This document shows, in pieces, positions 12,417-29,633 of a DNA stretch of 64,000 nucleotides. Both the position numbers and the translations under genes were made by a program. Location: contig NZ_LR131273.1 in NCBI RefSeq assembly GCF_900631615.1, positions 4,372,850-4,436,849 on the forward strand, written 5' to 3'. The stretch comes from Tsukamurella paurometabola (GTDB lineage: Bacteria; Actinomycetota; Actinomycetes; Mycobacteriales; Mycobacteriaceae). The notes under the pieces were generated by a model that worked only from the letters and a program-made list of their open reading frames with translations, did no database searches and had not been told where the DNA came from. How positions within the stretch are numbered: position 1 is the stretch's first letter; the number at the start of each line of letters is the position of its first letter.

Positions 12417-12433
12417 GCGATCCTTCCCCGCGA

Positions 12434-13842: not shown

Positions 13843-13867
13843 GGCCAGTCCTCCCTTACACGTCGAA

Positions 13868-13909
13868 CGATCAATCGGTGGAACGGTGCGATCAACCGAT
13901 GGAACAGCG
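13868..13909. repeat. Imperfect 21-bp tandem repeat in the rbfA leader
   Basis: CGATCAATCGGTGGAAC at 13868 recurs as CGATCAACCGATGGAAC at 13889; the full 21-base units match at 17 positions. A 21-bp period is two helical turns. It lies 26-67 bases before the rbfA start and may be an operator; no regulator is evident. Confidence 0.45.
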
Positions 13910-14004
13910 AGCATATCCCGGTGTGGCACTGCGGCGTCGGCACCTGCGTCCACCACACTCAATCCTGCGGCGAACCTGCGACCGAAGCCGCACGACCGTG
14001 AGGT

Positions 14005-14295: not shown

Positions 14296-14330
14296 CTTCT
14301 CGGGCCACCCGGCCCCGGGGATAGTCGGGC

Positions 14331-14365
14331 GGGTGCGGCCGGCGCGGATCGCGCCGGCCGCACCC
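14331..14365. terminator. 16-bp perfect hairpin after infB
   Basis: 14331-14346 and 14350-14365 are exact reverse complements with a three-base loop (GAT). It begins 11 bases beyond the infB stop on the minus strand and lies upstream of the DUF503 start, so it could end or attenuate infB transcription. No T-tract is present. Confidence 0.65.
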
Positions 14366-14375
14366 GATCCCGGGA

Positions 14376-17183
14376 TCAGTCGCGCGGCTTCTCGACCAGT
14401 TCGTAGGTCTCGATCACGTCGCCGATCTTGATATCGGAGTACGAGAGCGTCAGACCGCATTCGTAGCCCTCGCGGACCTCGGTCGCGTCGTCCTTCTCGC
14501 GCTTGAGCGACGTGACGGTGAGGTTCTCGGCCACGACCGCCGAATCGCGCAGCAGGCGCGCCTTCGCGTTGCGCCGCATGATCCCGGACTGGACCATGCA
14601 ACCCGCGATGTTGCCCACCTTGGACGACTTGAAGATCGCGCGGATCTCGGCCTGGCCGAGCTCCTTCTCCTCGTAGACCGGCTTGAGCATGCCCTTGAGC
14701 GCGGCCTCGACCTCGTCGATCGCCTGGTAGATCACCGAGTAGTACCGGATCTCCACGCCCTCACGGTTCGCGAGTTCCGTCGCCTTGCCCTCGGCCCGCA
14801 CGTTGAACGCGATGATGATCGCGTTCGACGCCGACGCCAGGTTGACGTTCGTCTCGGTGACGCCACCGACGCCGCGGTCGATGACGCGCAGCTGCACCTC
14901 GTCGTCGACCTCGATCCCGAGCAGGGCCTCCTCGAGCGCCTCCACGGTGCCCGAGTTGTCGCCCTTGAGGATGAGGTTGAGCTGGCTGGTCTCCTTCAGC
15001 GCGGCATCCAGATCCTCGAGCGAGACGCGCTTGCGCGAGCGCGCCGCCAGGGCGTTGCGCTTGCGCGCCGCGCGCCGGTCGGCGATCTGCCGGGCGATCC
15101 GGTCCTCGTCGACGACGAGCAGGTTGTCACCCGCTCCGGGCACCGACGTGAAGCCGATGACCTGCGCCGGACGCGACGGGGTCGCCTCCGAGATGTCGTC
15201 GCCGTTCTCGTCGACCATGCGGCGGACGCGACCGTACGCGTCGCCCGCGACGATCGAATCGCCGACGCGCAGCGTGCCGCGCTGGATGAGCACGGTGGCG
15301 ACCGGGCCACGGCCGCGGTCGAGGTGCGCCTCGATGGCGACGCCCTGCGCGTCCATGTCCGGGTTGGCCCGCAGGTCCAGCGACGCGTCGGCGGTCAGCA
15401 GGACCGCCTCGAGCAGCTGGTCGACGTTGGTGCCCTGCTTCGCGGAGATGTCGACGAACATCGTGTCGCCGCCGTACTCCTCGGGCACCAGACCGTACTC
15501 GGTGAGCTGGCCGCGGATCTTCTCCGGCTGCGCGCCCTCCTTGTCGATCTTGTTGACCGCCACGACGATCGGCACGTCGGCCGCCTGCGCGTGATTGATG
15601 GCCTCCACCGTCTGGGGCATGACGCCGTCGTCGGCGGCGACCACGAGGATCGCGAGGTCGGTGGCCTTCGCACCACGGGCACGCATGGCGGTGAACGCCT
15701 CGTGACCCGGGGTGTCGATGAAGGTGATGAGCCGCTCGTTGCCGTCGAGCTCCGTGAGCACCTGGTAGGCACCGATGTGCTGCGTGATGCCGCCGGCCTC
15801 GCCCTCGCGGACGTTGGCCTTGCGGATCGTGTCGAGCAGCCGGGTCTTACCGTGATCGACGTGGCCCATGACGGTGACCACCGGCGGACGGTACTCGAGG
15901 TCCTCCTCGCCGCCCTCGTCCTCGCCGTAGGTGAGGTCGAAGCTGTCGAGCAGCTCGCGGTCCTCGTCCTCGGGGCTGACGACCTGGACGACGTAGTTCA
16001 TCTCCTCGCCCAGCAGCACGAGGGTCTCCTCGTTCACCGACTGGGTGGCCGTGACCATCTCGCCCAGGTTGAACAGCGCCTGGACCAGCGAAGCCGGGTT
16101 CGCGTCGATCTTCTCCGCGAAGTCGCTCAGCGATGCGCCGCGAGCGAGACGGATGGTCTCGCCCTGGCCGCGGGGCAGCCGGACGCCACCGGCGATCGGC
16201 GCCTGCATGTTCTCGTACTCGGCGCGTTTCGCCCGCTTCGACTTGCGGCCACGGCGCGGGGCGCCACCGGGACGACCGAACGCACCAGCGGTGCCGCCGG
16301 GGCGGCCACGGCCGCCACCGCCCGGACGCCCGCGGAAACCGCCCGCGGGAGCACCGGTGCCGGTACCGCCGGGCCCACCGCGGTAGCCGCCGCCACCGCC
16401 GGGACGCCCGCCGGGCCCGCCACGGCCACCGGGGCCGGGGCGGCCCTGTGCGGCCGGGCGCGCGGCGCGCTGCGGCATCGCACCCGGGGTCGGGCGCGGA
16501 GGCATGCTGCCGGGGGTCGGGCGCGGGCCGCCGGGACCGGCCGCGGGACGGCCGCCCTGCGGACGCGGACCACCCTGGCCCGGAGCCGGGCGCGCGCCGC
16601 CCTGCGGACGCGGACCACCCTGGCCCGGAGCCGGACGGGCGCCGCCCTGCGGACGCGGGCCACCGGGGCCCGGCTGCGGGCGCGGCGCACGCTCGACGGG
16701 AGCCTGCGAGGAGAACGGGTTGTTGCCCACCTTCGGGGTGCGCGGCCCGGGCTTCGGGCCGGCCGGGCGCGGGCCCGGGCGTGCGGCGGGCGCCGCCGGA
16801 CGGGCTTCGGGCGCCGACGGTGCGGCGCTCGCCGCGGGAGCCGCCGGTGCGGCGGGCTCCGGGGCGGGCTCGGGCGCGGCCGGCGCCGCCGGGCGCGGGC
16901 CGGGACGAGCCGACGTGGGACGGGGGGCATCCGCGGCCGGTGCCGCTGCTGCCGGGGTGCTCGCGGCCGCGGGGCCGGGCTTCTTCGCCGGGGCGGGGCC
17001 CGGCTTGGCGCCGCCGTCGGACTTGGATCCGTACGACTCGCGCAGGCGTCGCGCGACGGGTGCTTCCACCGTCGACGACGCGGACTTCACGAACTCGCCC
17101 TGCTCACTGAGCCGTGCGAGAACTTCCTTGCTGGTGACACCGAGTTCCTTAGCCAACTCGTGCACGCGGGCCTTGCCTGCCAC
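14376..17183 (-). CDS. infB: Translation initiation factor IF-2
   Basis: GTPase that brings initiator tRNA to the 30S subunit. The 935-residue form starts with GTG at 17183, behind GAGGAGAG, giving [22 protein letters not shown], the usual actinobacterial N-terminus. Residues about 60-340 are a disordered Pro/Ala/Gly/Arg-rich region with 15-residue repeats. The G domain then shows GHVDHGKT (G1), DTPGHEAF (G3) and NKIDKEG (G4), followed by domains II, III and C2 ending near YELVEKPRD. In relatives infB directly follows ylxR; here an 8.4-kb block separates them, so infB must have its own promoter in 17184-17352. Confidence 0.97.
16551..16685. repeat. 45-bp tandem repeats within infB
   Basis: Three units starting at 16551, 16596 and 16641 encode [15 protein letters not shown]-type repeats; the first two are nearly identical and the third diverges at its end. 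They lie in the disordered linker of IF-2 and are likely to vary in copy number between strains. Confidence 0.7.
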
Positions 17184-17352
17184 TACTCTCCTCATCTGCG
17201 AGGTCGAGGGCACTGCAGGTCCCGCCGACCTCGGTTAGTAACTCCGATTGCCGTTCATCGCTGGTGCTTCACGGTGTGCTCATGTCTTCAGCTCGATTCC
17301 TTCGATTCTTCCGTCCGGCGGCCACTGCAGACCTGCCGTCTTCAGACCGTTG

Positions 17353-18468
17353 TCAATAATAGCGCGTCGTGGCAAATCGATTCGCCGCGCGGTCGCCGGC
17401 GACGCGCAGCCACCGCTGCGGCGCGGCGAGCGAGGCCGCCGCGGAACCCGCCAGATCGGTCAGCGCGAGCGTGCCGCCCGCCGCGTCCGGGTCGCCCAGA
17501 CCAGCCGCGACCTGCCCCGCGACCACCACGACGGGCACCCGCAGCGCCGCGCATCGGCGAACGATGCGCCCCACGACCTTGCCGGTCGCGGAGGTGCTGT
17601 CGAACCGGCCCTCCCCCGTGATGACCAGGTCGGCCGTCGGCAGCAGCTCCGTGAGCCCGGTGAGGTCCGCCATCCGGTCGGCGCCCGACACGGCGCTCGC
17701 TCCCCAGCACATCAGGCCGAAGCCCACGCCGCCCGCGGCGCCCGCGCCGGCCGCGTCCGCGAGCGCCGGATCACATCCCGCGGCCGCGAGCAGGCCCGCC
17801 CACGCGCGCAGGGCGTCGTCGAGCTCGCGCACCTGCGCCGGATCGGCTCCCTTCTGCGGCGCGAAGACGTGCGCGGCGCCGTCCGGCCCGTGCAGCGGCG
17901 CGCGTGTGTCCACGAGGAGCTCGACGCCACCCGCCGGCACCGGGATCAGCCCCTCGACGTCGACGGCGGCGACGGCCGCCAGGGGCCCGCGTCCCAGCGG
18001 CCGCCCCCGTCGGTCGAGGGCGCGCAACCCGAGCGCCGTGAGGGCACCCAGGCCACCGTCGGTGCTGGCGGAGCCGCCCAGCCCGACCCGCAGGGCCGGT
18101 GCACCGTCGTCGAGCGCGGCGCGGATCACCTCACCGAGCCCCCGGGAGGTGGCGGCCATGGGGTCCGGGGCCGCGAGGAGCGCGATGCCGGACGACTCGG
18201 CGAGCTCGACGACGGCCGTACCGGCGCCGTCGCGGATCCAGCGCGCGCGGACTGGGCGAGCATCCGGTCCGGTGACGACGGTGTACCGGTCCGCCCACCC
18301 GGGCGCGGCGGCGACGGTCGCGACCGTGCCCTCGCCGCCGTCGGCCTGCGGCAGGGCGATCACATCGTCACCGGGGCGCGCCCCCAGCCACCCCTCGCGG
18401 AGGGCGGCGGCGACCGCCGCCGCGTCGAGCGATCCCTTGAAGGAGTCCGGGGCGACGAGGACCCTCAC
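17353..18468 (-). CDS. Glycerate kinase
   Basis: Phosphorylates glycerate (2- or 3-phosphoglycerate product, depending on subfamily). The 371-residue GlxK/GarK-type protein starts with GTG at 18468: VRVLVAPDSFKGSLDAAAVA. Other family marks are LPQADGGEGTV, VGLGGSASTDGGLGAL and TGEGRFDSTSATGKV. The start overlaps the stop of the upstream TIM-barrel gene by four bases (GTGA). It is the last gene of the LacI-linked operon and is the only step whose product clearly enters central metabolism, so the pathway probably releases glycerate or tartronate semialdehyde (inference). Confidence 0.93.
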   Translation of the reverse strand: MRVLVAPDSFKGSLDAAAVAAALREGWLGARPGDDVIALPQADGGEGTVATVAAAPGWADRYTVVTGPDARPVRARWIRDGAGTAVVELAESSGIALLAAPDPMAATSRGLGEVIRAALDDGAPALRVGLGGSASTDGGLGALTALGLRALDRRGRPLGRGPLAAVAAVDVEGLIPVPAGGVELLVDTRAPLHGPDGAAHVFAPQKGADPAQVRELDDALRAWAGLLAAAGCDPALADAAGAGAAGGVGFGLMCWGASAVSGADRMADLTGLTELLPTADLVITGEGRFDSTSATGKVVGRIVRRCAALRVPVVVVAGQVAAGLGDPDAAGGTLALTDLAGSAAASLAAPQRWLRVAGDRAANRFATTRYY

Positions 18469-19346
18469 GCGCCGGACCGCAGGCCGGGCAGCACCAGCTC
18501 GCGGTACCGCTCCTTCATGCTGTCGACCACCGCCGCCGGATCGGTGTCCCAGATCTCCTGATTGAAGATCTCCACCTCGATGTCGCCCCGGTAGCCCGCC
18601 GCCGTGACCAGCTCGGTGAGGTATCCGAAGTCGACCACGCCGTCGCCCATCATCCCGCGGGAGAGCAGGGGGTCCGCGGCGATGGGCACGAGCCAGTCGC
18701 AGATCTGGTAGCTGCTGATCCGTCCGGCGCGGCCCGCCGCGGCCACCGCGTCGGCCAGCTCGGGGTCCCACCACACGTGGAAGGCGTCGACGACGACGCC
18801 GACCTGCTCCGCCGGGAACGGGGCGGCGAGTTCCAGTGCCTGTCCCAGGGTGGAGATCACCGCGCGGTCCGCGCAGTACATCGGGTGCAGCGGCTCCAGC
18901 GCGAGCCGGACGCCGCGGTCGGCGGCGTACGGCGCGAGGTCGGCGATCCGGTCGGCGAGGCGCAGGCGGGCACCCCGGAGGTCCCGGTCGGGCATGCCCC
19001 CCGCCACGATCACGAGCTCGGGCGCGCCGACGGCGGCCGCCTGGTCGAGGGCGCGACGGTTGTCGTCGAGCGCCGCGTCGTCGTGACCGGTGAGGAAGCC
19101 GCCCCGACACAGGCTCGAGACGCGCAGGCCGCTGTCGGCGAGGACCCGCACGGCCTCGTCGACACCCGCCTCCTCGAGCCGGTCGCGCCACAGGCCCACC
19201 GCCGGCAGGCCCGCACGAGCGGCGCCCTCGACGGCCTCGCGGAGCGTCCAGGACGCGGTGGTGCGGGTGTTGAGCGAGAGCCGCTCCCACCCGGTGCTCC
19301 CGGCACCGCCCGGGGCGGCGACGGATTGCGTTGCGGTGATGGTCAT
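18465..19346 (-). CDS. Sugar phosphate isomerase/epimerase-like TIM-barrel protein
   Basis: A 293-residue xylose-isomerase-like TIM barrel (AP_endonuc_2 family). Visible marks: LSLNTRTTASWTLREAVEGAARAGLPAVGLW at the start, LALEPLHPMYC with the metal-binding Glu, VGVVVDAFHVWWDPEL with Asp and His ligands, and GDIEVEIFNQEIW with the C-terminal Glu. The four-ligand divalent-metal site is therefore intact. Such proteins act as ketose epimerases, inosose dehydratases or isomerases; the substrate here is unknown. ATG overlaps the DUF993 stop (ATGA) and its own stop overlaps the glycerate kinase start. Confidence 0.85.
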   Translation of the reverse strand: MTITATQSVAAPGGAGSTGWERLSLNTRTTASWTLREAVEGAARAGLPAVGLWRDRLEEAGVDEAVRVLADSGLRVSSLCRGGFLTGHDDAALDDNRRALDQAAAVGAPELVIVAGGMPDRDLRGARLRLADRIADLAPYAADRGVRLALEPLHPMYCADRAVISTLGQALELAAPFPAEQVGVVVDAFHVWWDPELADAVAAAGRAGRISSYQICDWLVPIAADPLLSRGMMGDGVVDFGYLTELVTAAGYRGDIEVEIFNQEIWDTDPAAVVDSMKERYRELVLPGLRSGA

Positions 19347-20536
19347 CCCAGGACTCCGTTCACTTCGAGGTATCCGCGCATGCGGCGGGCCGCGTACTCG
19401 GGGTCGCGCAGCAGGCCGGCGCGGTCGGCGAGCACGAAGACCCGGGACAGGTGTTCGACGGACCGACCCGTCGCGAGCCCGCCCACCATGACGAAGCCCG
19501 GCTGCCGGCCGTTGAGCCAGGACAGGAAGGCGATCCCCGTCTTGTAGTAGTACGTCGGCGCTTCGAAGACGAGGCGGCCGAGGTCGCGGGTGGAGTCCAG
19601 GATCGCCCGCGCGCGGGCGGCGTCCCCAGCATCGAGCGCCTGCAAGGCGGTGGAGGCCGCGGGGTAGATCGCGGCGAAGATCCCCAGCAGCGCGTCCGAA
19701 TGACCGTGCTCGTCACCGACCACGAGTTCCGGGTAGTTGAAGTCGTCGCCGGTGTACAGCCGCACCCCTTCGGGAAGTGCGCGCCGCAGCGCGATCTCGT
19801 GGCCGGCATCGAGCAGCGAGACCTTGACGCCGTCGACGGCCGCCGCGTTCTCCTCGATGAGGCGGAGGAAGGTCCGCGTCGCCTCTCCCACGTCGGCGCT
19901 GCCCCAGTACCCGCGCAGGGCCGGGTCGAACATCTCGCCCAGCCAGTGCAGGACGACGGGGCGGTCGACCTCGGCGAGCAGGGTTCCGTAGACGGTGAGG
20001 TAGTCCTCCGCGGACTCGGCCACGGCCGCGAGGGCGCGCGAGGCCATGAGGATCACCTGCGCGCCCGCGCCGGCCACCACCTCGATCTGCTCGCGATAGG
20101 CGTCCGTGATCGCACGCAGCCCGGCCCGGCCGGACGGGAGCGTGGCCGGGTCGAGCTGGTCCGTCCCCGCTCCGCAGGCGATCCGGCCTCCCACCGCCCG
20201 CGCCTCGGCGGAGCTGCGCCGGATCAGCTCGGCCGTCGCCGCCCAGTCCAGGCCCATGCCGCGCTGCGCGGTGTCCATGGCTTCCGCGACGCCGAGCCCG
20301 TACGACCACAGTTCCCGGCGGTAGGCCAGGGTCGCGTCCCAGTCGAGGTCGGCCGGCGCACCGGGGGTGTTGTCCGCCGTGGTCCGCGGCACGACGTGCG
20401 CCGCCGCGAACGCCACGCGTGAGGTGATGGGCGCGGTGGGCCGCTGCCAGGGTCCCGGTTCGCCGAGCCGGTGCGGGCGGAGCTCGCCGTCGAGGGGTAG
20501 GAGCAGTCCGGCGCTCGTACCGGCCGGGGCGCTCAC
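19343..20536 (-). CDS. DUF993 protein, dihydrodipicolinate synthase/aldolase-like
   Basis: A 397-residue protein from the GTG at 20536, which overlaps the dehydrogenase stop (GTGA). Pipelines place DUF993 next to the DapA/NanA class I aldolase superfamily. It shows a TIM-barrel layout with GAQVILMASRALAAV, VVLHWLGEMFDPALRGYWG, VDGVKVSLLDAGHEIALRRALP (Lys after DGV at the place a Schiff-base Lys would be expected) and RLYTGDDFNYPELVVGDEHGHSDALLGIFAAIYPAAS. No experimental function is known to me. In this operon it is the plausible carbon-carbon bond-cleaving enzyme. Confidence 0.8.
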   Translation of the reverse strand: MSAPAGTSAGLLLPLDGELRPHRLGEPGPWQRPTAPITSRVAFAAAHVVPRTTADNTPGAPADLDWDATLAYRRELWSYGLGVAEAMDTAQRGMGLDWAATAELIRRSSAEARAVGGRIACGAGTDQLDPATLPSGRAGLRAITDAYREQIEVVAGAGAQVILMASRALAAVAESAEDYLTVYGTLLAEVDRPVVLHWLGEMFDPALRGYWGSADVGEATRTFLRLIEENAAAVDGVKVSLLDAGHEIALRRALPEGVRLYTGDDFNYPELVVGDEHGHSDALLGIFAAIYPAASTALQALDAGDAARARAILDSTRDLGRLVFEAPTYYYKTGIAFLSWLNGRQPGFVMVGGLATGRSVEHLSRVFVLADRAGLLRDPEYAARRMRGYLEVNGVLG

Positions 20537-21699
20537 AGCTCGATCTCCGGGACCTCGAGGCGCATGCCGCGCTCGGAGCTGGCGAGCCCGAGCTCCGCGA
20601 GCTGGACGCCGCGCGCCGCCGAGAGCAGTCCGAACCGGTGCGGGCGTCCGGCCACGACGTCGCGCAGGAACTCCTCCCACTGCAGCTTGAAGCCGTTGTC
20701 CAGGTCGGCGTTCGCGGGCACGTCGAGCCACTGGTCGCGGAAGGACTCGGTGACCGGCAGGTCCGGATTCCACACGGGTTTGGGCGTGTTCGACCGGTGC
20801 TGGGCGACGCAGCCGCGCAGCCCGGCGACGGCGGAACCGTGCGTGCCGTCGACCTGGAACTCGACGAGCTCGTCCCGGTGCACGCGGACGGTCCACGCCG
20901 AGTTGATCTGCGCGATGATGCCGCCGTCGATCTCGAAGATGCCGTACGCGGCGTCGTCGGCGGTCGCGGCGTACTCCTTCCCGTTCTCGTCCCACCGCAC
21001 CGGGATCTGGGTGACGGCCTTCGCGGTGACCGCACGGACCGGCCCGAGGATGCCCTCCATCACGTAGTTCCAGTGGCAGAACATGTCCACCGTGATGCCG
21101 CCGCCGTCCTCCGCGCGGTAGTTCCAGCTGGGCCGCTGCGCGGGCTGACCGTCGCCCTCGAACACCCAGTAGCCGAAATCGCCGCGCATGGACAGGATGC
21201 GCCCGAAGAAGCCCTCGTCCACGAGCCTCCGCAGCTTCACGAGGCCCGGAAGGTACAGCTTGTCGTGGACGACGCCGGCGACGACGCCGGAGTTCTGCGC
21301 CAGCCGAGCGAGCTCCACGGCCTCGACGAGTGTCTCGGCGGTCGGCTTCTCCGTGTAGACGTGCTTGCCCGCCTTGATCGCGGCCGTCAGGGCCGCGACA
21401 CGGCGCGAGGTGACCTGCGCGTCGAAGTAGACGTCCACCGCGGGATCCGCGATCACCGCCGCGGCGTCGGTGGTCCAGTGCTCGACGCCGTGCTGCGCGG
21501 CCAGTTCCTGCAGGCGCTCGGCGTTGCGCCCCACCAGGATCGGTTCGACGTCCACGAGCGTGCCGTCCTCGAGCCGCAGCCCGGAATCGCGCAGCGGAAG
21601 GATCGAGCGGACCAGGTGCTGCCGGTACCCCATGCGGCCGGTGACGCCGTTCATGGCGATCCGGAGGGTGCGGCGGGAGGGAAGTGCGGAATGAGTCAT
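20533..21699 (-). CDS. Gfo/Idh/MocA-family dehydrogenase
   Basis: A 388-residue NAD(P)-dependent oxidoreductase starting MTHSALPSRRTLRIAMNGVTGRMGYRQH at 21699; 28 residues more are open upstream, but these would run into the palindrome and operator. NVTGRMG is the dinucleotide-binding Gly-rich turn. KHVYTEKPTAETLVEA is the EKP motif typical of the family. It leads the four-gene operon. Family members oxidise sugars, inositols or their derivatives at one hydroxyl; the substrate is unknown. Confidence 0.88.
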   Translation of the reverse strand: MTHSALPSRRTLRIAMNGVTGRMGYRQHLVRSILPLRDSGLRLEDGTLVDVEPILVGRNAERLQELAAQHGVEHWTTDAAAVIADPAVDVYFDAQVTSRRVAALTAAIKAGKHVYTEKPTAETLVEAVELARLAQNSGVVAGVVHDKLYLPGLVKLRRLVDEGFFGRILSMRGDFGYWVFEGDGQPAQRPSWNYRAEDGGGITVDMFCHWNYVMEGILGPVRAVTAKAVTQIPVRWDENGKEYAATADDAAYGIFEIDGGIIAQINSAWTVRVHRDELVEFQVDGTHGSAVAGLRGCVAQHRSNTPKPVWNPDLPVTESFRDQWLDVPANADLDNGFKLQWEEFLRDVVAGRPHRFGLLSAARGVQLAELGLASSERGMRLEVPEIEL

Positions 21700-21720
21700 C
21701 AGGTGTGCCCCGTCTTCGGG

Positions 21721-21744
21721 CGCGGGCGTCGATCGACACCCGCG
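21721..21744. promoter_or_regulatory. 24-bp near-perfect palindrome in the dehydrogenase leader
   Basis: The halves 21721-21732 and 21733-21744 are reverse complements at 11 of 12 positions, centred on TCGATCGA. It lies 22 bases before the operon start codon. It may be a second operator or, in RNA, a 12-bp hairpin near the ribosome-binding site. Confidence 0.5.
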
Positions 21745-21767
21745 GACATTGCGGTCGGTTGCACTTC

Positions 21768-21781
21768 GGAATGCGCATTCC
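21768..21781. promoter_or_regulatory. LacI-type operator O1
   Basis: GGAATGCGCATTCC is a perfect 14-bp palindrome with the central CpG typical of LacI-family operators. It lies between the divergent lacI-type gene and the catabolic operon, next to -10-like hexamers for both directions. A near-copy precedes the ABC transporter (22959-22972). Confidence 0.72.
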
Positions 21782-21811
21782 AAGCTATGCTAGACCGGCA
21801 GCACGCGTCAA

Positions 21812-21827
21812 GCTCCGGCGCCGGAGC
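21812..21827. promoter_or_regulatory. 16-bp perfect palindrome near the regulator gene
   Basis: GCTCCGGCGCCGGAGC is a perfect palindrome 31 bases before the regulator ATG and just upstream of a TTGACG -35-like element (21806-21811, minus strand) for the catabolic operon. Role unknown; it may be an RNA hairpin in the regulator leader. Confidence 0.4.
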
Positions 21828-21858
21828 ACCCCTTGCGGCCACACAGACGGGACACGAC

Positions 21859-22890
21859 ATGGCGGTCACCCTGCAGGACGTCGCGCAACGCGCGGGCGTC
21901 TCCCAGTCGACGGCATCGCGGGTCCTCAACGGCTCGAGCCGGGTTCCCCGCGAGGACGTCGCCGATCGCGTGCGCGCCGCGGCACTCGAGTTGGGCTACG
22001 TCCCGAACGCACAGGCCCAGGCCCTGGCCCGATCGTCGACGGGGCTCCTCGGGGTGGTGGTGCACGACATCGCCGACCCGTACTTCTCGTCGATCGTGCG
22101 CGGCGTGCAGACCGCCTCCCGCACCGCTGCGAAGGAGGTGCTCCTGGCCAGCACCGATCGCGACTTCGACGTCGAGCGCGAGGCGGTGGGCACCCTCATC
22201 GCCCACCGCGCCGACGCCGTGATCCTCGCCGGTTCGCGCCAGAGCGGCGATCTCGACCGCGATCTCGAAGCGCAGTTCGGCCGCTACCGGGCCGACGGCG
22301 GGCGGGTCGTGGTGATCGGCCAGCCACTCGCCTTCGGCAGCGCGGTGGAGCCCGAGAACCGTAGCGGGGCCGGCGAACTGGCGGAGGCATTGATCGCCGC
22401 GGGCCATCGGGAGTTCGCCGTGATCGGCGGGCCCGCGAGCATCCGCACCGCGGTGGACCGCCGCACCGGATTCGTCGAGGCGCTCGCGCGGCACGACCTC
22501 ACCCCGCTGGTGGAGGTGTCCGGGGACTTCACCCGCGACGGCGGGTACGCGGCGGCCCGGCGGCTGGCCGACGCCCTGCAGTTGGGCGCTCCGCGCAGCG
22601 GCCCGCCGGCGTGCGTCTTCGCGGTGACCGACGTGATGGCGATCGGCGCGATCGCCGCCTGGCGCGAGCGGGGACTCACCGTGCCCGAAGACGTCTGCAT
22701 CGCGGGCTTCGACGACATCCCGACGCTGCGGGATCACACGCCCAGCCTATCCACCGTCGCCCTCCCGCTGGAGGAGATCGGCACGCGCGCCGTGGAACTC
22801 GCGCTCCGGACGGACGCCGACGACACCGGCCTGCGCGAGCGCGTACCGGGCCGCGTGGTCCTGCGGAGGAGCACCGCCCTGGACGGCTGA
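21859..22890 (+). CDS. LacI-family transcriptional regulator
   Basis: A 343-residue regulator. Residues 1-55 are the LacI HTH and hinge helix: VTLQDVAQRAGVSQSTASRVLNGSSRVP then LGYVPNAQAQALARSSTG. The rest is a periplasmic-binding-protein-like effector domain with VVHDIADPYFSSIVRG, FAVIGGPASIRTAVDR, FAVTDVMAIGAIAAW and CIAGFDDIPTLRDHTPSLSTV. It sits between the divergent catabolic operon and the ABC transporter, both bearing the same palindrome, so it is probably their local repressor. The ligand is not predictable. Confidence 0.92.
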   Translation: MAVTLQDVAQRAGVSQSTASRVLNGSSRVPREDVADRVRAAALELGYVPNAQAQALARSSTGLLGVVVHDIADPYFSSIVRGVQTASRTAAKEVLLASTDRDFDVEREAVGTLIAHRADAVILAGSRQSGDLDRDLEAQFGRYRADGGRVVVIGQPLAFGSAVEPENRSGAGELAEALIAAGHREFAVIGGPASIRTAVDRRTGFVEALARHDLTPLVEVSGDFTRDGGYAAARRLADALQLGAPRSGPPACVFAVTDVMAIGAIAAWRERGLTVPEDVCIAGFDDIPTLRDHTPSLSTVALPLEEIGTRAVELALRTDADDTGLRERVPGRVVLRRSTALDG

Positions 22891-22899
22891 GCGCGGCCG

Positions 22900-22916
22900 C
22901 GGATTCACCGAATCCG
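22900..22916. terminator. Short hairpin after the LacI-type gene
   Basis: CGGATTC-ACC-GAATCCG begins nine bases beyond the regulator stop and directly abuts the TTGACA of the transporter promoter. It may end regulator transcription or be a protein-binding site. Confidence 0.4.
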
Positions 22917-22946
22917 TTGACACTGTGTGCTGGATCACGCTATCGT
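22917..22946 (+). promoter_or_regulatory. Promoter of the ABC transporter operon
   Basis: TTGACA (22917-22922) and TATCGT (22941-22946) with an 18-base spacer form a sigma70/SigA-like promoter. The operator at 22959-22972 falls just beyond the expected start site, where a repressor would block escape. Confidence 0.6.
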
Positions 22947-22958
22947 CGAACTCGCTTC

Positions 22959-22972
22959 GGAAAGCGCATTCC
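22959..22972. promoter_or_regulatory. LacI-type operator O2
   Basis: GGAAAGCGCATTCC differs from operator O1 at one position, and flanking CTTC is shared too. This strongly suggests that the LacI-type regulator also controls the transporter. Confidence 0.68.
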
Positions 22973-23015
22973 CAACGGGTCGTCGTACCCGGCACTTCGA
23001 ACATAGGAACTGCCC

Positions 23016-23876
23016 ATGGCCGTATCCGCGCCGGCAGAACCGTCTCGCACCGCGACACCGGTTCCCAGGCGACAACGTCCGACCTTCGCGCCCGGATCCA
23101 CCCTCGCGAGCCTCTGGCGCCCCATCGCCCTGATCGTGGTCCTCTGCATCGCGTGGTGGGCGGTCACCAAGGCCGAACTGGTCGCGCCGTACATCCTCCC
23201 CTCGCCCGCCGACACCTGGAACGTCGCCCGCGAGAACGCCGCCTACCTCGCCGACCACACCTGGGTCACCACCTGGGAGACCATCATCGGCTTCGTGATC
23301 GCCGCCGTCATCGGCGAACTGGTCGCGGTCGCGATGGTGTACTCGCCGAGCGTCGAGAAGACGCTCTACCCCCTCATCCTGTTCGCCCAGGTCATTCCGA
23401 AGATCGCGATCGCACCTCTGTTCATCGTGTGGCTGGGCTTCGGGCCCACGCCGAAGATCCTCGTGGCCGTGCTGATGGCCTTCTTCCCCATCGCCATCTC
23501 CGGGCTCGCCGGCCTGCGATCGGTCGATCCCGAGATCCTCGAGCTGACCTCCACCATGGGCGCCAGCCGCCTCAAGACGTTCGCGAAGGTCCGATTCCCC
23601 GCCTCGCTCCCCCAGCTCATGTCGGGCCTGAAGGTCGCGGCCACGCTCGCCGTGACCGGCGCCGTGGTCGGCGAGTTCGTGGGCTCCAACGAGGGCCTGG
23701 GTTACGTCATCCTGCAGGCCAACGGCAACGTCGACACCGCGATGCTGTTCGCGGCCCTGATCATCATGTCCGGTCTGGGCATCGCGCTCTTCGCCGTCAT
23801 CGAGATCGCCGAGAAGCTGCTCATCCCGTGGCACTCCTCGCGCCGCGCGACCTCGTCCACCATCCCCGGCGCCTGA
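23016..23876 (+). CDS. ABC transporter permease, nitrate/sulfonate/thiamine-precursor class
   Basis: A 286-residue inner-membrane permease of the BPD_transp_1 superfamily, SsuC/TauC/ThiX-like. There are about six helices; the first spans about residues 33-52 (IALIVVLCIAWWAVTKAEL). It contains APYILPSPADTWN, FVIAAVIGELVAVAMVYSPSVEKTLYPL and the EAA-type loop ELTSTMGASRLKTFAKVRFPASLPQLMSGLKVAATLAVTGAVVGEF. First gene of a three-gene transporter operon behind the promoter and operator. Confidence 0.9.
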   Translation: MAVSAPAEPSRTATPVPRRQRPTFAPGSTLASLWRPIALIVVLCIAWWAVTKAELVAPYILPSPADTWNVARENAAYLADHTWVTTWETIIGFVIAAVIGELVAVAMVYSPSVEKTLYPLILFAQVIPKIAIAPLFIVWLGFGPTPKILVAVLMAFFPIAISGLAGLRSVDPEILELTSTMGASRLKTFAKVRFPASLPQLMSGLKVAATLAVTGAVVGEFVGSNEGLGYVILQANGNVDTAMLFAALIIMSGLGIALFAVIEIAEKLLIPWHSSRRATSSTIPGA

Positions 23877-23901
23877 CCGCCCACCCTCCCCAGGAGTCAC
23901 C

Positions 23902-24936
23902 ATGAAGTTCCCCCGCCGCATCGCCGCCACCGTCGCGGCCACCGGAGCCCTCGCCCTCACCCTGACCGCCTGCGGCGGAGGGAGCGGCGACGGTTCCCCC
24001 TCCGCCGGCCCCGGCGGAGGCGCGCAGAAGACGCTGATGCTCAACTGGTACCCGTACGGCGAGCACGCCCCGTTCTATCTCGGTGTCGCGCAGGGCATCT
24101 TCGCCAAGCACGGCATCGATCTGAAGATCGACGCCGGCCAGGGTTCGACCAAGACCGTCCAGGCCGTCGGATCCCGGAAGGCCGACTTCGGCTGGGCCGA
24201 TACGCCCGCCGTGCTCAGCAACATCGACAAGGGCGTGAAGGTCAAGAGTCTCTCGGTCTTCCTGCAGACCACGCCGTCCGCGGTACAGGTCTTCGCGGAC
24301 TCCGGCATCACCACCCCGCAGGACCTCGCCGGCAAGACCATCGCGGTCTCCGCGGGCGACGCGCCCACCACGACGTTCCCCATCTACCTCGACAAGGTCG
24401 GCCTCAAGCCCGACCAGGTCACGCAGCAGAGCCTGGACGCCGCGGGCAAGATGTCCGCCCTGCTCTCGGGACGGGTCGACGGGCTGATCGGCTTCGCCCA
24501 CGACCAGGGCCCGACGATCGCCGCGAAGAGCGGGCGGGAGATGCGCTACCTCCGCTACTCCGACGCGGGCCTGAACTTCTACAGCAACGGCCTGATCGCC
24601 GCGGACGAGACGATCACCGGCTCGCGCGACCTCGCGAAGTCCATGCTCGACGCCGTCCGCGAAGCCTTCGCCGCGGCCGTGGCGAACCCCGAGGCCGCCG
24701 TCGACGCGATGGCCGGCAAGGATCCGCAGATGCCGCCCCGCGACGTCCTGCTCGCGCAGTGGCGCCAGACCATTCCGCTGCTGTCCACCCCCGCCACGAA
24801 GGACAAGGGCCCCGGGGTCAACGCCGAGGAGGACTGGAAGACCACCATCGCCACGCTCAACCAGGCCGGCCTGCTCAAGGCCGCGAATCCGCCGCAGAAC
24901 TACTGGGATCCGTCGTTCACCGCGGCCGGGAAGTAG
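23902..24936 (+). CDS. ABC transporter substrate-binding lipoprotein (NMT1/THI5-like)
   Basis: A 344-residue lipoprotein with signal peptide and lipobox LTAC (Cys about residue 25), then a Gly/Ser linker. The mature part begins LMLNWYPYGEHAPFYLGVAQGIFAKHGIDLKI, the start of NMT1/THI5-like binding proteins such as ThiY and RibY that bind pyrimidine, riboflavin or aromatic-like ligands, rather than of sugar-binding proteins. A GSTKTVQAVGSRKADFGWAD segment lines the usual cleft. Ligand unknown. The ATG follows CAGGAGT by five bases. Confidence 0.9.
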   Translation: MKFPRRIAATVAATGALALTLTACGGGSGDGSPSAGPGGGAQKTLMLNWYPYGEHAPFYLGVAQGIFAKHGIDLKIDAGQGSTKTVQAVGSRKADFGWADTPAVLSNIDKGVKVKSLSVFLQTTPSAVQVFADSGITTPQDLAGKTIAVSAGDAPTTTFPIYLDKVGLKPDQVTQQSLDAAGKMSALLSGRVDGLIGFAHDQGPTIAAKSGREMRYLRYSDAGLNFYSNGLIAADETITGSRDLAKSMLDAVREAFAAAVANPEAAVDAMAGKDPQMPPRDVLLAQWRQTIPLLSTPATKDKGPGVNAEEDWKTTIATLNQAGLLKAANPPQNYWDPSFTAAGK

Positions 24937-24941
24937 GCGCC

Positions 24942-25751
24942 ATGTCCATGTCCGCCACCACCGAACGGCTGCAGACCGCACCCGCGGCGATCGCGGTGAA
25001 CGACCTCACCGTCACCTTCTCCTCCAAGCGCGGCACCACCACCGCGATCGAGGGCGTCGATCTGACCGTCGCCGACGGCGAGTTCGTCACCATCGCGGGC
25101 CCCTCGGGATGCGGTAAGTCGACCCTCCTCAAGGTCGTCGCCGGACTCACCGACTCGTCCAGCGGCGAGGTGCTCCTCCGCGGGAAGAAGGTCGCCGGGC
25201 CCCAGCGCGAGATCGGCTACGTCTTCCAGCGCGCGGCGCTGCTGGAGTGGCGCAACGTCCGCAAGAACATCCTCCTGCAGGCGGAGATGCGGGGCATGCC
25301 CAAGCAGGCCGCCGCGCAGCGCTGCGATCATCTCCTCGAGATGACGGGGCTCACGGGCTTCGCCAACGCGATGCCGTACGAACTGTCCGGCGGCATGCAG
25401 CAGCGAGTGTCCCTGTGCCGGGCGCTCATGCACGAACCGGACGTGCTGCTCATGGACGAGCCGTTCGGCGCTCTCGACGCGCTCACCCGCGAGAAGATGA
25501 ACGTCGAACTGCACCGGATCTGGCGGGAAACGGGCACGACCGTCGTGCTGGTCACGCACTCCGTCGCCGAGGCCGTCTACCTCGCGAACCGGGTCGTCGT
25601 GATGAGCCCGCGCCCGGGCCGGATCGTCGAGGACATCGCCGTGGACCTGCCGGCCGAGCGGGACTACGCGGACACGATGGAGCGGCCGGAGTTCATCCGG
25701 ATCGCGAACCGCGTCCGTGAGCTCCTCGGAAGCAGTTCCGCGGCCGACTGA
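24942..25751 (+). CDS. ABC transporter ATP-binding protein
   Basis: A 269-residue nucleotide-binding subunit from ATG at 24942. Walker A GPSGCGKST at residues 53-61, Q-loop YVFQRAALLEW, signature LSGGMQQRV, Walker B VLLMDEPFGALDALTRE and the switch His in VLVTHSVAEAVYLANRVVVMS. Matches the SsuB/TauB/ThiZ subfamily. It starts five bases after the binding-protein stop. Confidence 0.92.
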   Translation: MSMSATTERLQTAPAAIAVNDLTVTFSSKRGTTTAIEGVDLTVADGEFVTIAGPSGCGKSTLLKVVAGLTDSSSGEVLLRGKKVAGPQREIGYVFQRAALLEWRNVRKNILLQAEMRGMPKQAAAQRCDHLLEMTGLTGFANAMPYELSGGMQQRVSLCRALMHEPDVLLMDEPFGALDALTREKMNVELHRIWRETGTTVVLVTHSVAEAVYLANRVVVMSPRPGRIVEDIAVDLPAERDYADTMERPEFIRIANRVRELLGSSSAAD

Positions 25752-25769
25752 CGGCCCGGCCCGCCGACG

Positions 25770-26078
25770 TCACCCCACCGCGGAGTCGTCGAGCGGGCCG
25801 GAGACCCGCAGGGCCCGGCGGAAGGCGTTCCGCTTCCGTGCCTGCTCCCGGCAGCCGGGGTCGTCGTGCAACCACGCGCCCCGCCCCGGCAACCGGTGCC
25901 GCCCGTCCACCACGACGGTCCGCGCACCGTCGACCGGCGCGGATGCGACCACCCGGACCAATTCGCCCGCGGGGGCCCGGCGCCGGCATCCGATGCAGGT
26001 GCGGACCGGCCCCGGGGCGTCGCCGTGCACGCCGGTTCCCGGCCCGGGGCCGGGGATCCCGCCCGGCCTCCTCGTCAC
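25770..26078 (-). CDS. ylxR: YlxR (DUF448) RNA-binding protein
   Basis: A 102-residue protein with the core [20 protein letters not shown] and [27 protein letters not shown]. This is the YlxR fold, a small nucleic-acid-binding protein encoded in nusA-infB operons; in some bacteria it affects rnpB or RNase P activity. GTG at 26078 overlaps the nusA stop by four bases. In relatives infB would follow at once; here the transporter gene converges 18 bases away. Confidence 0.9.
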
Positions 26079-27076
26079 TTCGCTTCCGCACCCTCCGCGT
26101 CGGAGCGGATGTCGATGCGCCAGCCGGTGAGCCGGGCGGCGAGGCGGGCGTTCTGCCCCTCCTTGCCGATCGCGAGGGAGAGCTTGAAGTCCGGGACCAC
26201 TACGCGGGCGGCCTTCTCCTTGGCGTCGACGATGGTCACCGACACCACCGACGACGGCGACAGGGCGTTGCCGACGAAGACCGCGGGGTCGTCGTCGTAG
26301 GAGATGATGTCGATCTTCTCGCCCTCGAGGTCGCTCATCACGTTCCGCACGCGCTGGCCCATCGGGCCGATGCAGGCGCCCTTGGCGTTGAGGCCCGCGA
26401 CCGAGGTGCGCACCGCGATCTTGGAGCGGTGCCCCGCCTCCCGCGCCACCGAGGTGATCTCGACGCTGCCGTCGGCGATCTCGGGCACCTCGAGCGCGAA
26501 GAGCTTCTTCACCAGGTTCGGGTGGGTGCGCGAGAGGGTGATCTGGGTGCCGCGCTGGCCGCGGCTCACGCCCACGACGTAGAACTTCATCCGGTCGCCG
26601 TGCTCGTAGGTCTCCCCCGGCACCTGCTCCGCGGGCGGCAGGAGCCCCTCGTGGCCCTCACGCTCGCTGCCGATGCGGACCACGACGAAACCGCGGGCCG
26701 CCGCGCGGGCGTCGGCCTGCACCACACCGGAGACGACCTCGCCCTCGTAGACGGCGAACTCACCGAAGGTGCGGTCGTTCTCGGCGTCGCGCAGCCGCTG
26801 GGTGATGAGCTGGCGCGCCGAGTCCGCGGCGATGCGGCCGAAGCCCTCGGGGGTGTCGTCCCACTCGGTGATGATGTTGCCGTCCGCGTCGAGCTCCTGC
26901 GCCAGCACCTTCACCTCGCCGGTGCGGCGGTTGACGTCGATCCGCGCGTGCGGCTGGTGCCCCTCGGTGTGCTTGTACGCGGTGAGGAGAGCCACCTGGA
27001 TCGCTTCGATGACCGTGTCGACGGAGATGTCCTTCTCCGCCTCGATCGCCCGCAGGGTCGCCATGTCGATGTTCAT
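26075..27076 (-). CDS. nusA: Transcription termination/antitermination factor NusA
   Basis: A 333-residue NusA of the short actinobacterial form (no C-terminal acidic repeats). It has an N-terminal RNA-polymerase-binding domain ([22 protein letters not shown]), an S1 domain near residues 110-185 ([27 protein letters not shown]), and KH domains with [34 protein letters not shown]. It starts directly after the rimP stop with no spacer. Confidence 0.96.
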
Positions 27077-27679
27077 CTAGTCCTCATTCCTCTGCGCCGC
27101 ACCGGCGTCCTCGCCCGTCAGGTCCTCCGGTTCGGCACCCGACTCCACGCGCCCGGGCATGATGCCCGAGAGCTCCATCTCCTTGGGGTTCGGCCTGCGG
27201 AACTCGACGCGGACGGCGGCCGCGGCCACCTCCGCGAGGTCGAGATCACGGGTCGTCGGGGCGGCCCCCTTCACCCCCGGCAGCACGACGGTGACCGTCG
27301 CCCCGCGCGGCCCGTCCTCCGTGAGCCGCCCGATCCGGGCCAGGAGGTTCGTACCGTCCGTCAGCTCGATCGCCGCCTGGCGTCCGCGGGCGCGCCGCCA
27401 GTGGCGCGGCTCGGTGAGCGGGCGCTCCGCACCGGGCGTGGTGACCTCGAGGGTGAACGCCTGGGCACCGAAGACGTCGTCCGCGTCGTCGACCGCGGCG
27501 GAGAGCGTCCGTGCGACCTCCGCCAACTCGTCGAGGGTGGGACCCGCGTCGCTGTCGACGACCACGGCGATGGAGGACTTGGTGCCCGCGTTGTTGATCT
27601 TCAGCCGCTCCAGGTCGAGCCCGGCCGCATCCAGGTGGGGCGCGATGACGGCCAACACCTTCGCCTCGTCGTAAGCCAT
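27077..27679 (-). CDS. rimP: Ribosome maturation factor RimP
   Basis: A 200-residue RimP, needed for 30S assembly. It has the N-terminal domain with GLDLERLKINNAGTKSSIAVVVDSD, the conserved EVTTPGAERPLTEPRHWRRARGR and the C-terminal SH3-like region. The last ~20 residues form an acidic tail. First gene of the rimP-nusA-ylxR operon; divergent from the lipoprotein gene at 27767. Confidence 0.95.
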   Translation of the reverse strand: MAYDEAKVLAVIAPHLDAAGLDLERLKINNAGTKSSIAVVVDSDAGPTLDELAEVARTLSAAVDDADDVFGAQAFTLEVTTPGAERPLTEPRHWRRARGRQAAIELTDGTNLLARIGRLTEDGPRGATVTVVLPGVKGAAPTTRDLDLAEVAAAAVRVEFRRPNPKEMELSGIMPGRVESGAEPEDLTGEDAGAAQRNED

Positions 27680-27766
27680 ACGCGCCTCCCTGTGAAATTG
27701 TCACCGGACGTGCCCGGTGTCGAACGCTGCAGCCAGTGTACCCGGGCGTCTCGCTACACTCGCCCC

Positions 27767-28294
27767 GTGATCGCCCCATCCCCGAGCCGCGACGACGACT
27801 CCCCGTCCCGTCCCGGCATCGACCGTCGCACCGCCCTGACATCCGTCCTCCTCGCGGGGGGCGCCCTCGCGGGCGGGGCCGCACTGGCGGGGTGCACCAC
27901 CCCCGAGGACCGCGCCGACGACCCGCAGGCCGTGCGATTGCAGGCCGCGGCCGCCCGGGCCCAGGCCGACGCGGACGCCGCCCGGGGCCTCGCCGTGCTC
28001 GACGGGGCCGCCGGACCGCAGCTGCGACTCATCGCGGATCAGCGCGGCCAGCACGCCACGGCACTGGCCGACGAGCTGTCGCGGTACGTCGAGCGCCCGA
28101 CGTCCGTCACCGCCGCACCGTCGTCGACCGCCGCGGCGCCGTCGCCGCTGAACCGCCAATCGCTGCGCGCCCAGCTCGCCCGGTCGGCGAAGGACGCGGG
28201 AGATGCAGCGGTCGCCGCGTCCGGCTACCAGGCCGCGCTGCTCGGCTCCGTGGCCGCCGCGACGCGCGTCCACGCGGAGGTGGTGCTCGGATGA
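27767..28294 (+). CDS. Tat-type lipoprotein, Rv2843-like
   Basis: A 175-residue exported protein starting with GTG at 27767. A twin-arginine-like motif (DRRTALTS) precedes a hydrophobic stretch ending in lipobox LAGC (Cys about 43). The mature part is Ala-rich and helical, with alternating hydrophobic and Arg/Gln residues. Its stop overlaps the ATG of a DUF4439 gene (ATGA). The rimP-divergent position matches Rv2843-Rv2844 of M. tuberculosis. Function unknown. Confidence 0.7.
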   Translation: MIAPSPSRDDDSPSRPGIDRRTALTSVLLAGGALAGGAALAGCTTPEDRADDPQAVRLQAAAARAQADADAARGLAVLDGAAGPQLRLIADQRGQHATALADELSRYVERPTSVTAAPSSTAAAPSPLNRQSLRAQLARSAKDAGDAAVAASGYQAALLGSVAAATRVHAEVVLG

Positions 28295-28725
28295 CCCCCG
28301 CCCAGGAGGCCGTCGCCGCCGCGGTCACGTCCGAGCACGCCGCCGTCTACCTGTACGGGCTCGTCGAGGCGTACGCCTCCCCCACCCGGAAGGCCGAGAT
28401 CGCGACGTACGCCGCCGAGCACCGCTCACAGCGGGACGCCCTGGCGCGGGTGCTCAGTGCCGCCGGCGTCGAAGTTCCCGCCGCGGCTCCCGCGTACACC
28501 CCGCCCGAGCCGGTCACCGACCCCGTCAGTGCCGCCAAGGTCGCCGCGGCGGCCGAGGACGACACCGCCGCGGCGCATCGGAACGTACTGTCCCACGCCG
28601 ATGGTGACGGGATCCGGCACCTCGGCGTCACCGGGCTCGGGGACGCCGCGGTCCGCGGGGCCCGCTGGCGCGCCGCGCTCGGAGCGTCCCCGGTGACCAC
28701 GCCGTTCCCCGGTATCCGCACCTGA
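28291..28725 (+). CDS. DUF4439 ferritin-like protein
   Basis: A 144-residue helical protein with EHAAVYLYGLVEAYASPTRKAEIATYAAEHRSQRDAL, which is the DUF4439 ferritin-like pattern (Glu-His on one helix, Glu-His on the next: AAEH). Whether it binds metal is unproven. Translationally coupled to the upstream lipoprotein, so the two probably act together. Confidence 0.8.
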   Translation: MTPAQEAVAAAVTSEHAAVYLYGLVEAYASPTRKAEIATYAAEHRSQRDALARVLSAAGVEVPAAAPAYTPPEPVTDPVSAAKVAAAAEDDTAAAHRNVLSHADGDGIRHLGVTGLGDAAVRGARWRAALGASPVTTPFPGIRT

Positions 28726-28756
28726 CGTTCCCTTTGCCTGCCTTTACACTCGGGGA

Positions 28757-29563
28757 ATGACGTCCAGCGATCCGCAGCAGCCCGGCGACGGGACCTACGA
28801 CCCGACGGTGATCCGCCCGGCTGAGCCGAAGCCCGCCGCGCCCGACCTGACGAAGCGCGACGGCGACGCGCCCGCCGGACAGGACGTCGCCGGCGATCCC
28901 GACGCGGCCACCACCGTGCACAACACGGCGCAGCCGGATCCGTACACCGCGCCCCCGTCGTACGCCCCGCCGGCGGATCCCTACGCGGCACCGGCCGCCG
29001 ATCCGTACGCGCAGCAGAACCCGTACGCCGCACCCGCGGATCCGTACGCGCAGCAGAACCCGTACGGTGCGCCCGCGGATCCGTATGCGGCACCGTCGAA
29101 CCCGTACGCCGCGCCCCCGCAGTACCCGGGCCAGCAGCAGTACGGGCAGCAGCCGTACGGTCAGGATCCCTACGGCCAGCCGGGTTACGGACAGCAGGGC
29201 TTCCCCGCCTACCCGGGCCAGAACGCGCCGGGCTACCCCGCGCCCGGCTACGGCCAGCCGACCGGCACCAACGGCCTCGCGATCGCATCGCTCGCGGTCG
29301 GCGTCCTCGCCTTCCCGCTCACGTGCATCCCGTACGTGGGGGTCGTCGGGTTCCTCATGGCGATCGCCGCGATCGTCCTGGGCGCCGTCGGGATGAACCA
29401 GACCAAGAAGACCGGCCAGCAGGGCCACGGCATGGCCATCGCCGGTCTGGTTCTCGGCATCGTGTACATCGTGCTCGGCGTCATCCTCGTGATCGTCGGG
29501 GTGGGGCTGGTCGCTTCCGGAGAGTTCGACACCGGCAACTCGCTGCTGTCGCTGCTGGGCTGA
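28757..29563 (+). CDS. DUF4190 membrane protein with a Pro/Tyr/Gln-rich repeat arm
   Basis: A 268-residue protein. Residues about 60-165 are disordered with short repeats such as DPYAAP and DPYAQQNPY, encoded at about 28971-29200. The C-terminal ~100 residues are a DUF4190 domain with two helices, LAIASLAVGVLAFPLTCIPYVGV and a second pair (AIAGLVLGIVYIVLGVILVIV), carrying the motif NQTKKTGQQGHGMAIAGLVLG. Envelope-located scaffold or sensor roles are possible; function unknown. Followed by a strong terminator. Confidence 0.8.
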   Translation: MTSSDPQQPGDGTYDPTVIRPAEPKPAAPDLTKRDGDAPAGQDVAGDPDAATTVHNTAQPDPYTAPPSYAPPADPYAAPAADPYAQQNPYAAPADPYAQQNPYGAPADPYAAPSNPYAAPPQYPGQQQYGQQPYGQDPYGQPGYGQQGFPAYPGQNAPGYPAPGYGQPTGTNGLAIASLAVGVLAFPLTCIPYVGVVGFLMAIAAIVLGAVGMNQTKKTGQQGHGMAIAGLVLGIVYIVLGVILVIVGVGLVASGEFDTGNSLLSLLG

Positions 29564-29580
29564 CGTCGGCCCTTCGCACG

Positions 29581-29620: not shown

Positions 29621-29633
29621 CTGAGGGGCGGCG

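Follow-up and report, generated by a model that had tools for sequence, protein, structure and literature searches.

What has come to lie between ylxR and infB, two genes of a core translation operon, in Tsukamurella paurometabola, and what might it do there? The question is raised by a 64,000-nucleotide stretch of this genome (contig NZ_LR131273.1 of assembly GCF_900631615.1, forward-strand positions 4,372,850 to 4,436,849), which as a whole is referred to below as the window. Within it, an 8.4-kb block of eight genes (17353-25751, from the stop codon of a glycerate kinase gene to that of an ATP-binding cassette (ABC) importer ATPase gene) separates the two genes, at exactly the coordinates proposed in a preliminary description of the sequence. 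We consider it reasonably probable that the block as a whole is a self-contained, lac-type catabolic cassette for a small polyhydroxylated compound (a sugar, a sugar acid or a close relative) that was acquired by homologous recombination. It has the look of a working, mobile cassette under LacI control, and the enzyme core on which it is built is widespread and unexplained. What is already widespread is the core itself, consisting of a Gfo/Idh dehydrogenase, a DUF993 protein and a triosephosphate isomerase (TIM)-barrel protein; what is unusual is its insertion between ylxR and infB.

Along the minus strand the genes run in the order rimP, nusA, ylxR, the block, infB, DUF503 and rbfA (families checked), and the locus comprises the following features.

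14376-17213, minus strand: infB, flanking gene, with an alternative start at 17195 (PF11987, PF00009, PF04760)
17214-17352, minus strand: retained infB leader, continuous with the spacer of empty sites; infB-side edge of the insertion
17353-18468, minus strand: glycerate kinase, GTG start (PF02595, E 3.6e-99, 332.7 bits over residues 3-362, near full length; TIGR00045, 279.8 bits against a cut-off of 168.45)
18465-19346, minus strand: xylose-isomerase-like TIM barrel, AP_endonuc_2 (PF01261, 1e-33; relatives in the PDB 7vpf, 3ju2 and 3qc0)
19343-20536, minus strand: DUF993, GTG start (PF06187, 9.3e-182)
20533-21699, minus strand: Gfo/Idh/MocA dehydrogenase, at the head of the enzyme operon (Pfam; PDB relative 3oqb)
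21768-21781, no strand assigned: predicted LacI operator GGAATGCGCATTCC in the gap between lacI and the enzyme operon (palindrome match)
21859-22890, plus strand: LacI-family repressor (PF00356, 2.8e-15; PF13377, Peripla_BP_3, 8.6e-30)
22917-22946, plus strand: sigma-70-like promoter TTGACA-18-TATCGT upstream of the importer genes (consensus match only)
22959-22972, no strand assigned: predicted LacI operator GGAAAGCGCATTCC 5' of the importer genes (palindrome match)
23016-23876, plus strand: ABC importer permease, BPD_transp_1 (PF00528, 1.2e-30)
23902-24936, plus strand: NMT1/THI5-like substrate-binding protein (PF09084, 3.3e-44; nearest solved relative 3ix1, 3.7e-14)
24948-25751, plus strand: ABC importer ATPase, ABC_tran, with an alternative start at 24942 (PF00005, 7e-33)
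25752-25769, no strand assigned: insertion edge towards ylxR, where 18 bp separate the convergent ATPase and ylxR stops
25770-26078, minus strand: ylxR, flanking gene (PF04296, 1.2e-20)
26075-27076, minus strand: nusA, flanking gene
27077-27679, minus strand: rimP, flanking gene

The Pfam matches agree with the gene set named in the preliminary description, namely a Gfo/Idh dehydrogenase, DUF993, a TIM barrel, a glycerate kinase, a LacI regulator and an NMT1-type importer. Four-base overlaps (GTGA, ATGA, GTGA) link all four enzyme genes into a coupled operon that is co-directional with infB; lacI and the three importer genes run in the opposite direction, tail to tail with ylxR.

The rarity of this arrangement was assessed in the genus and in the family. 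Among 16 genomes of the genus (the present one is G000 and the others are named by handle), DUF993 is present in two, G000 and G014, and in both it lies between nusA-ylxR and infB. In the remaining 14 genomes ylxR adjoins infB: in 13 of these empty sites an N-terminal infB motif follows the ylxR stop at a distance of 102-466 bp, and in the fourteenth, G010, adjacency was taken from gene positions. The family was sampled with 151 genomes. Of these, 145 gave matches to both YlxR and IF-2, and 129 have the pair on a single contig; left out of the count were 16 genomes in which the pair is divided between contigs and six in which a match is missing. The distance from YlxR to IF-2 is 2,465-3,176 bp in 127 of the 129 genomes and 11.0-11.1 kb in the other two, again G000 and G014. 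The insertion had been called striking at the outset, and the operon is indeed unbroken in 127 of 129 comparable family genomes; the suppositions that separation is normal in the genus, or that every close relative has the block, are both false (two of 16). The DUF993 family is patchy in the bacterial family as well, being found in 42 of 301 genomes (41 over cut-off) and in 9 of 31 genera. An assembly artefact was ruled out, since a second genome, G014, shares both the block and the infB-side join.

The block appears to carry its own regulation. The palindrome GGAAWGCGCWTTCC is found at 21768, in the gap between lacI and the dehydrogenase gene, and at 22959, in the gap between lacI and the importer genes, which makes two matches in the window versus 0.02 expected. 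In the whole 4.7-Mb genome these two sites are the only ones with at most one mismatch, and a backwards control gave none. The LacI control suggested earlier has thereby gained putative operators in both regulatory gaps and, because no further operator occurs in the 4.7-Mb genome, the LacI regulon would be confined to the block alone, as far as this motif tells. The sigma-70-like promoter (10 of 12 matches) is the only promoter-like match in 17150-26200, where 0.1 are expected, and the second operator lies just downstream of it. A repressor gene and palindromic predicted operators at the genes to be controlled together give the locus the make-up of a LacI-regulated operon. The G014 block carries two operators as well, and an operator with at most one mismatch lies no more than 350 bp upstream of the dehydrogenase gene in 42 of 78 related loci, versus 0.005 expected per locus; that the other 36 loci, mostly from Streptomyces (25) and Micromonospora (4), are without one counts against this reading.

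In the explanation that we favour, an inducer would release LacI and the NMT1-class ABC system would take up the substrate, one hydroxyl of which would be oxidised by the Gfo/Idh dehydrogenase with NAD(P). The TIM-barrel enzyme would isomerise, epimerise or dehydrate the intermediate, and DUF993 would split a carbon-carbon bond via a Schiff base on its strand-6 lysine. One fragment would become glycerate, which the kinase would phosphorylate into lower glycolysis. The dehydrogenase has the domains PF01408, PF22725 and PF02894 over cut-off, and its E117-K118-P119, D205 and H209 are invariant in 29 of 29 sequences; these are the EKP and D-X3-H residues, which we take to be catalytic. In the TIM-barrel protein, presumed to be a metal-dependent isomerase, epimerase or dehydratase, E151, D187, H190, D217 and E257 are invariant in all 35 aligned sequences.

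The strongest hint at the product comes from the kinases. Across 95 loci (80 genome loci and 15 plasmid loci, scanned at E 1e-20), DUF993 has a glycerate kinase of the PF02595 type nearby in 11 and one of the DUF4147/MOFRL type in six, never both; each family was confirmed in two representatives. Closely related loci are among those counted (two from Nocardia, two from Micromonospora and two from S. meliloti), which lowers the number of independent cases. Because two unrelated glycerate kinase families adjoin DUF993, in 17 of 95 loci, glycerate is the likely end product of the route, as the preliminary description had it. Several observations weigh on the other side. A glycerate kinase is missing at this threshold from 78 of the 95 loci (some stretches are short), so the route may not yield glycerate everywhere; a glycerate kinase match occurs in every one of the 16 genus genomes, the one in the block being a second copy here; and genes for a lactonase, an aldehyde dehydrogenase and a classical sugar-acid dehydratase are all missing from the block.

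DUF993 would perform the central step. By fold comparison it has the TIM-barrel fold of the dihydrodipicolinate synthase (DHDPS)/N-acetylneuraminate lyase superfamily. Its K238, invariant in 38 of 38 sequences, lies within strand 234-240, sixth among the eight strands of the barrel, and in a weak profile match it aligns with the GVK lysine of the DHDPS encoded in the same genome. We take strand 6 to be the position of the DHDPS Schiff-base lysine, and the strand-5 Tyr and GTTGE to be further DHDPS motifs. DUF993 thus shares the fold and the strand-6 lysine with this superfamily and is presumed to be a Schiff-base aldolase. It differs in having about 40 extra N-terminal residues, and other differences argue against the assignment. 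By profile, DUF993 resembles DHDPS only weakly (hhalign probability 7.5%), so the claim of a DHDPS fold rests on the fold comparison; at E 0.001 DUF993 matches only PF06187 and not PF00701, the DHDPS family. Moreover, the aldolase chemistry is unproven, because the GTTGE motif is lost (an invariant AMDTAQRGM occupies that region) and an invariant H197 stands where DHDPS has its catalytic Tyr on strand 5. The family has a solved structure, 4dnh. No functional study of DUF993 was found in a full-text literature search, whose coverage leaves out most subscription papers; queries with PDB codes or SMa locus tags returned only unrelated literature, and cluster terms returned nothing.

In 76 of the 80 loci fetched, the Gfo/Idh, DUF993 and TIM genes of the core lie side by side and in one direction. 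Most of the DUF993 loci fetched (75 of 80) are from Actinomycetota, with further records from Bacillota, Chloroflexota and Gemmatimonadota, and Proteobacterial plasmids carry such loci too; with the core widespread in other phyla and on plasmids, the route is not special to this locus. DUF993 relatives occur in 147 plasmid records (e.g. L129 and L130), and one is on plasmid pPSED02 of Pseudonocardia dioxanivorans (L069). Given these many plasmids, 63 of the 147 typed as conjugative, the core is often on mobile DNA. In Sinorhizobium meliloti the related genes are SMc04130-SMc04133 (structures 3ju2 and 4dnh), with a binding protein, SMc04135, that is annotated for amino acids or peptides, unlike that of the block; excerpts of PMC12542648 and PMC11387232 assign no function to SMc04130-SMc04134. 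A second context of DUF993 with the TIM barrel (L132, L134, L136, L140, L143, L144) includes a short-chain dehydrogenase/reductase (SDR) gene and, variably, genes for coenzyme A (CoA)-transferase, enoyl-CoA hydratase, acyl-CoA dehydrogenase, GMC oxidoreductase and glycerate kinase, so DUF993 serves more than one setting. On a plasmid of Streptomyces sp. NBC_00557 (L145), a DUF993 gene lies immediately 5' of a type I polyketide synthase gene, and going by this locus the family may have a biosynthetic use.

The importers that accompany the core vary. Homologous NMT1-type importers flank it in 8 of 80 genome loci (Mycolicibacterium, Nocardia, Rhodococcus, Rhodococcoides and Micromonospora) and in Chelatococcus. 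Plasmid pCO-6 of Chelatococcus sp. CO-6 (L135) has the importer, Gfo/Idh, DUF993 and the TIM barrel in one run, with a binding protein 36% and a permease 43% identical to those of the block; unlike the block, it includes an enolase-superfamily gene within the run, has a TetR-family gene alongside and shows no glycerate kinase in the stretch. Elsewhere the importers are annotated as sugar ABC systems (pAO1, Rhodococcus USK13, several rhizobial and Microvirga plasmids) or belong to the major facilitator superfamily (Erwinia), although some of these loci represent the second, SDR and CoA-ester context. Because the importer types vary so much by lineage, this comparison favours a small polyhydroxy compound as the substrate. 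The preliminary description was correct about the NMT1 class, but the mismatch with a sugar route that it saw as an oddity of the block recurs in those eight loci; of the two substrate classes that it proposed, a cyclitol is possible, with nothing to favour it over a sugar or sugar acid.

A special case of our preferred explanation, which we regard as a somewhat doubtful one, is that the substrate is D-xylose or another pentose and that the cassette encodes a variant of the oxidative route for pentoses that has been proposed for pAO1. The dehydrogenase would then yield a lactone or acid, DUF993 would cleave a keto-deoxy acid, and the two-carbon piece would reach glycerate through hydroxypyruvate or tartronate semialdehyde. 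On pAO1 of Paenarthrobacter nicotinovorans (NZ_CP089294.1), an aldH gene annotated for D-xylose catabolism stands beside a Gfo/Idh gene, DUF993 and a glycerate kinase gene, whose products are 72%, 67% and 40% identical to those of the block. A paper of 2013, which PMC12472514 and PMC6305408 cite, reportedly described an NAD(P) sugar dehydrogenase of pAO1 that prefers D-xylose, although a preference in vitro need not equal the physiological role; PMC10494377 and PMC6214936 gave no text matches for pAO1 and xylose. The pAO1 stretch lacks a TIM-barrel gene, lies outside any core operon, has a sugar-type ABC importer (binding protein Peripla_BP_4) and includes GMC and aldehyde dehydrogenase genes, neither of which is among the eight genes of the block, whose importer is not of a sugar class. 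In Arthrobacter sp. B6 the core adjoins a xylose isomerase gene (TIGR02631 above cut-off) and a gene resembling xylulokinase (slightly below its cut-off), with an aldose epimerase gene at a greater distance; this xylA/xylB neighbourhood was seen in one genome, and the clusters of the two B6 neighbours span 8 and 6 of 80 loci, of which the B6 members alone were scanned. D-xylose is therefore a fair candidate, not more.

How did the cassette reach its place? In a tree of nusA and the upstream flank, G014 groups with the empty-site species G004 (support 100/100) and G000 falls in another clade (98/99). The 353-bp junction 17000-17352, comprising the leader and the start of infB, groups G000 with G004 and G014 instead (93/92), and these data reject the pairing of G000 with G002 found in the nusA tree by 59.7 log units (p-AU, approximately unbiased test, 2.6e-5). 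Identity of G000 to G014 is 96.5 and 97.0% in the two 200-bp windows adjoining the block and then 73.5%, whereas to G002 it is 88.3, 92.5 and then 87.0%. Because the sequence from the block into infB thus differs in history from nusA, the cassette was probably spread by homologous recombination that carried the block and the start of infB together. Along with it, some 350 bp of the leader and the 5' part of infB would have come from a source lineage related to G014 and G004. Some results fit this less well. G009 exceeds G014 in the first window (98.7%, partial alignment), and G015 reaches 93.4 and 96.0%, nearly equal to G014 in the second; the contrast is strongest against G002 and its like and in the first window. 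Support for the junction group is below the starred level, and sliding identity revealed no donor tract on the ylxR side. Finally, the synonymous divergence (dS) between G000 and G014 is 0.51-0.83 for the block and 0.38 for nusA; as block dS exceeds nusA dS, this says that G014 itself was no recent donor. The ratio of nonsynonymous to synonymous divergence (dN/dS) of 0.08-0.30 across the eight block genes suggests that all of them are maintained as functional in both genomes.

A rival history, which seems to us unlikely, has the block present already in the ancestor of the genus and lost by the other 14 sampled species, with no gain or recombinational transfer. Two non-sister species do share the infB-side join, and the divergence of their blocks is on the order of species divergence; however, no block gene was found at the junction loci of the other 14, which would require repeated clean losses, and the G000 junction sequence clusters with another lineage.

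The edges of the block are also informative. The cassette lies at the 3' end of ylxR. On the infB side the sequence matches that of the empty site from about the ylxR stop onward, and by homology to empty sites the last ~10 codons of the glycerate kinase gene (ANRFATTRYY) derive from the former ylxR-infB spacer. The G014 join is identical in position, with the kinase C-terminus AKRFAPTR. An integrase- or transposon-borne island was ruled out, as no integrase or transposase gene is among the eight and edge repeats are absent (the longest word common to 200 bp at each edge has 7 bases versus 8.0 in shuffles). No known RNA element scored at gathering level in 12000-30000. No terminator was found at the block edges, and the lone terminator-like match in 17150-26200, where 1.6 are expected, falls within the ATPase gene. 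For Mycobacterium abscessus, an excerpt of PMC10727445 lists a WhiB7 site immediately 5' of infB, which makes a separate infB promoter within the ylxR-infB spacer plausible by analogy.

In the infB leader (17235-17283, minus strand), three tiny reading frames, MSTP, VKHQR and MNGNRSY, follow one another with GTGA and ATGA overlaps. Of 15 genus genomes examined (G008 not included), 14 retain this chain, G010 giving no match, and it recurs with changed codons in three genomes from two other genera of the family; a strict form of the pattern matches 4 of 121 genomes of the order, this one included. It is a possible translation-sensing leader of IF-2, a type for which the excerpt of PMC10727445 contains no report. 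Elsewhere at this junction, G012 (L014) and G009 (L015) are ~230-265 bp longer than the usual ~200 bp. The extra DNA contains motifs that we take to be IdeR-box-like, e.g. TTAGGTTAGGCTAACC in G012, and the ylxR end is altered in G009. Going by these two genomes, it is as if the junction repeatedly takes insertions. In Mycolicibacterium iranicum (L023), an importer-LacI-Gfo/Idh-DUF993-TIM cassette lies ~4 kb downstream of infB, past rbfA-like and oligoribonuclease-like genes, which is a different spot in the same chromosomal neighbourhood.

The least probable alternative, that the substrate is a non-sugar such as an organic acid, a sulfonate or a hydroxylated aliphatic compound, draws on the NMT1/SsuA class of the importer (the best solved relatives bind or make pyrimidine precursors), on SaoP/TauC/SsuC-like permease matches and on the second DUF993 context with CoA-ester and SDR genes, and we consider it improbable because relatives of the core adjoin genes annotated as sugar ABC importers and no desulfonation gene is among the eight. 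A sulfonate importer in particular was ruled out, as no sulfonate model reaches its cut-off: SsuA_fam TIGR01728 scores 68.8 of 163.5 bits, and the permease matches and the Tau/Ssu ATPase models fall short likewise. The structure model of the binding protein has a low mean predicted local distance difference test score (pLDDT 66.3).

For the lac-type cassette acquired by recombination, a wider interpretation can be offered tentatively, and as a joint claim it is rather less probable than the cassette itself. DUF993 would be a carbon-carbon lyase of a new class within the DHDPS superfamily, with the Lys kept, the Tyr replaced by His and the carboxylate-binding motif lost, and it would be central to an undescribed glycerate-forming route of several phyla; the ylxR-infB junction, with infB keeping its own leader, would be a tolerated landing site for interspecies homologous recombination. 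An operon that is intact in 127 of 129 comparable sampled genomes still accommodates an 8.4-kb insertion, perhaps because infB retains its own leader and promoter region. With its single repressor, a pair of operators, one importer and four enzymes, the locus is a compact test bed, for which the empty-site species of the same genus are natural controls.

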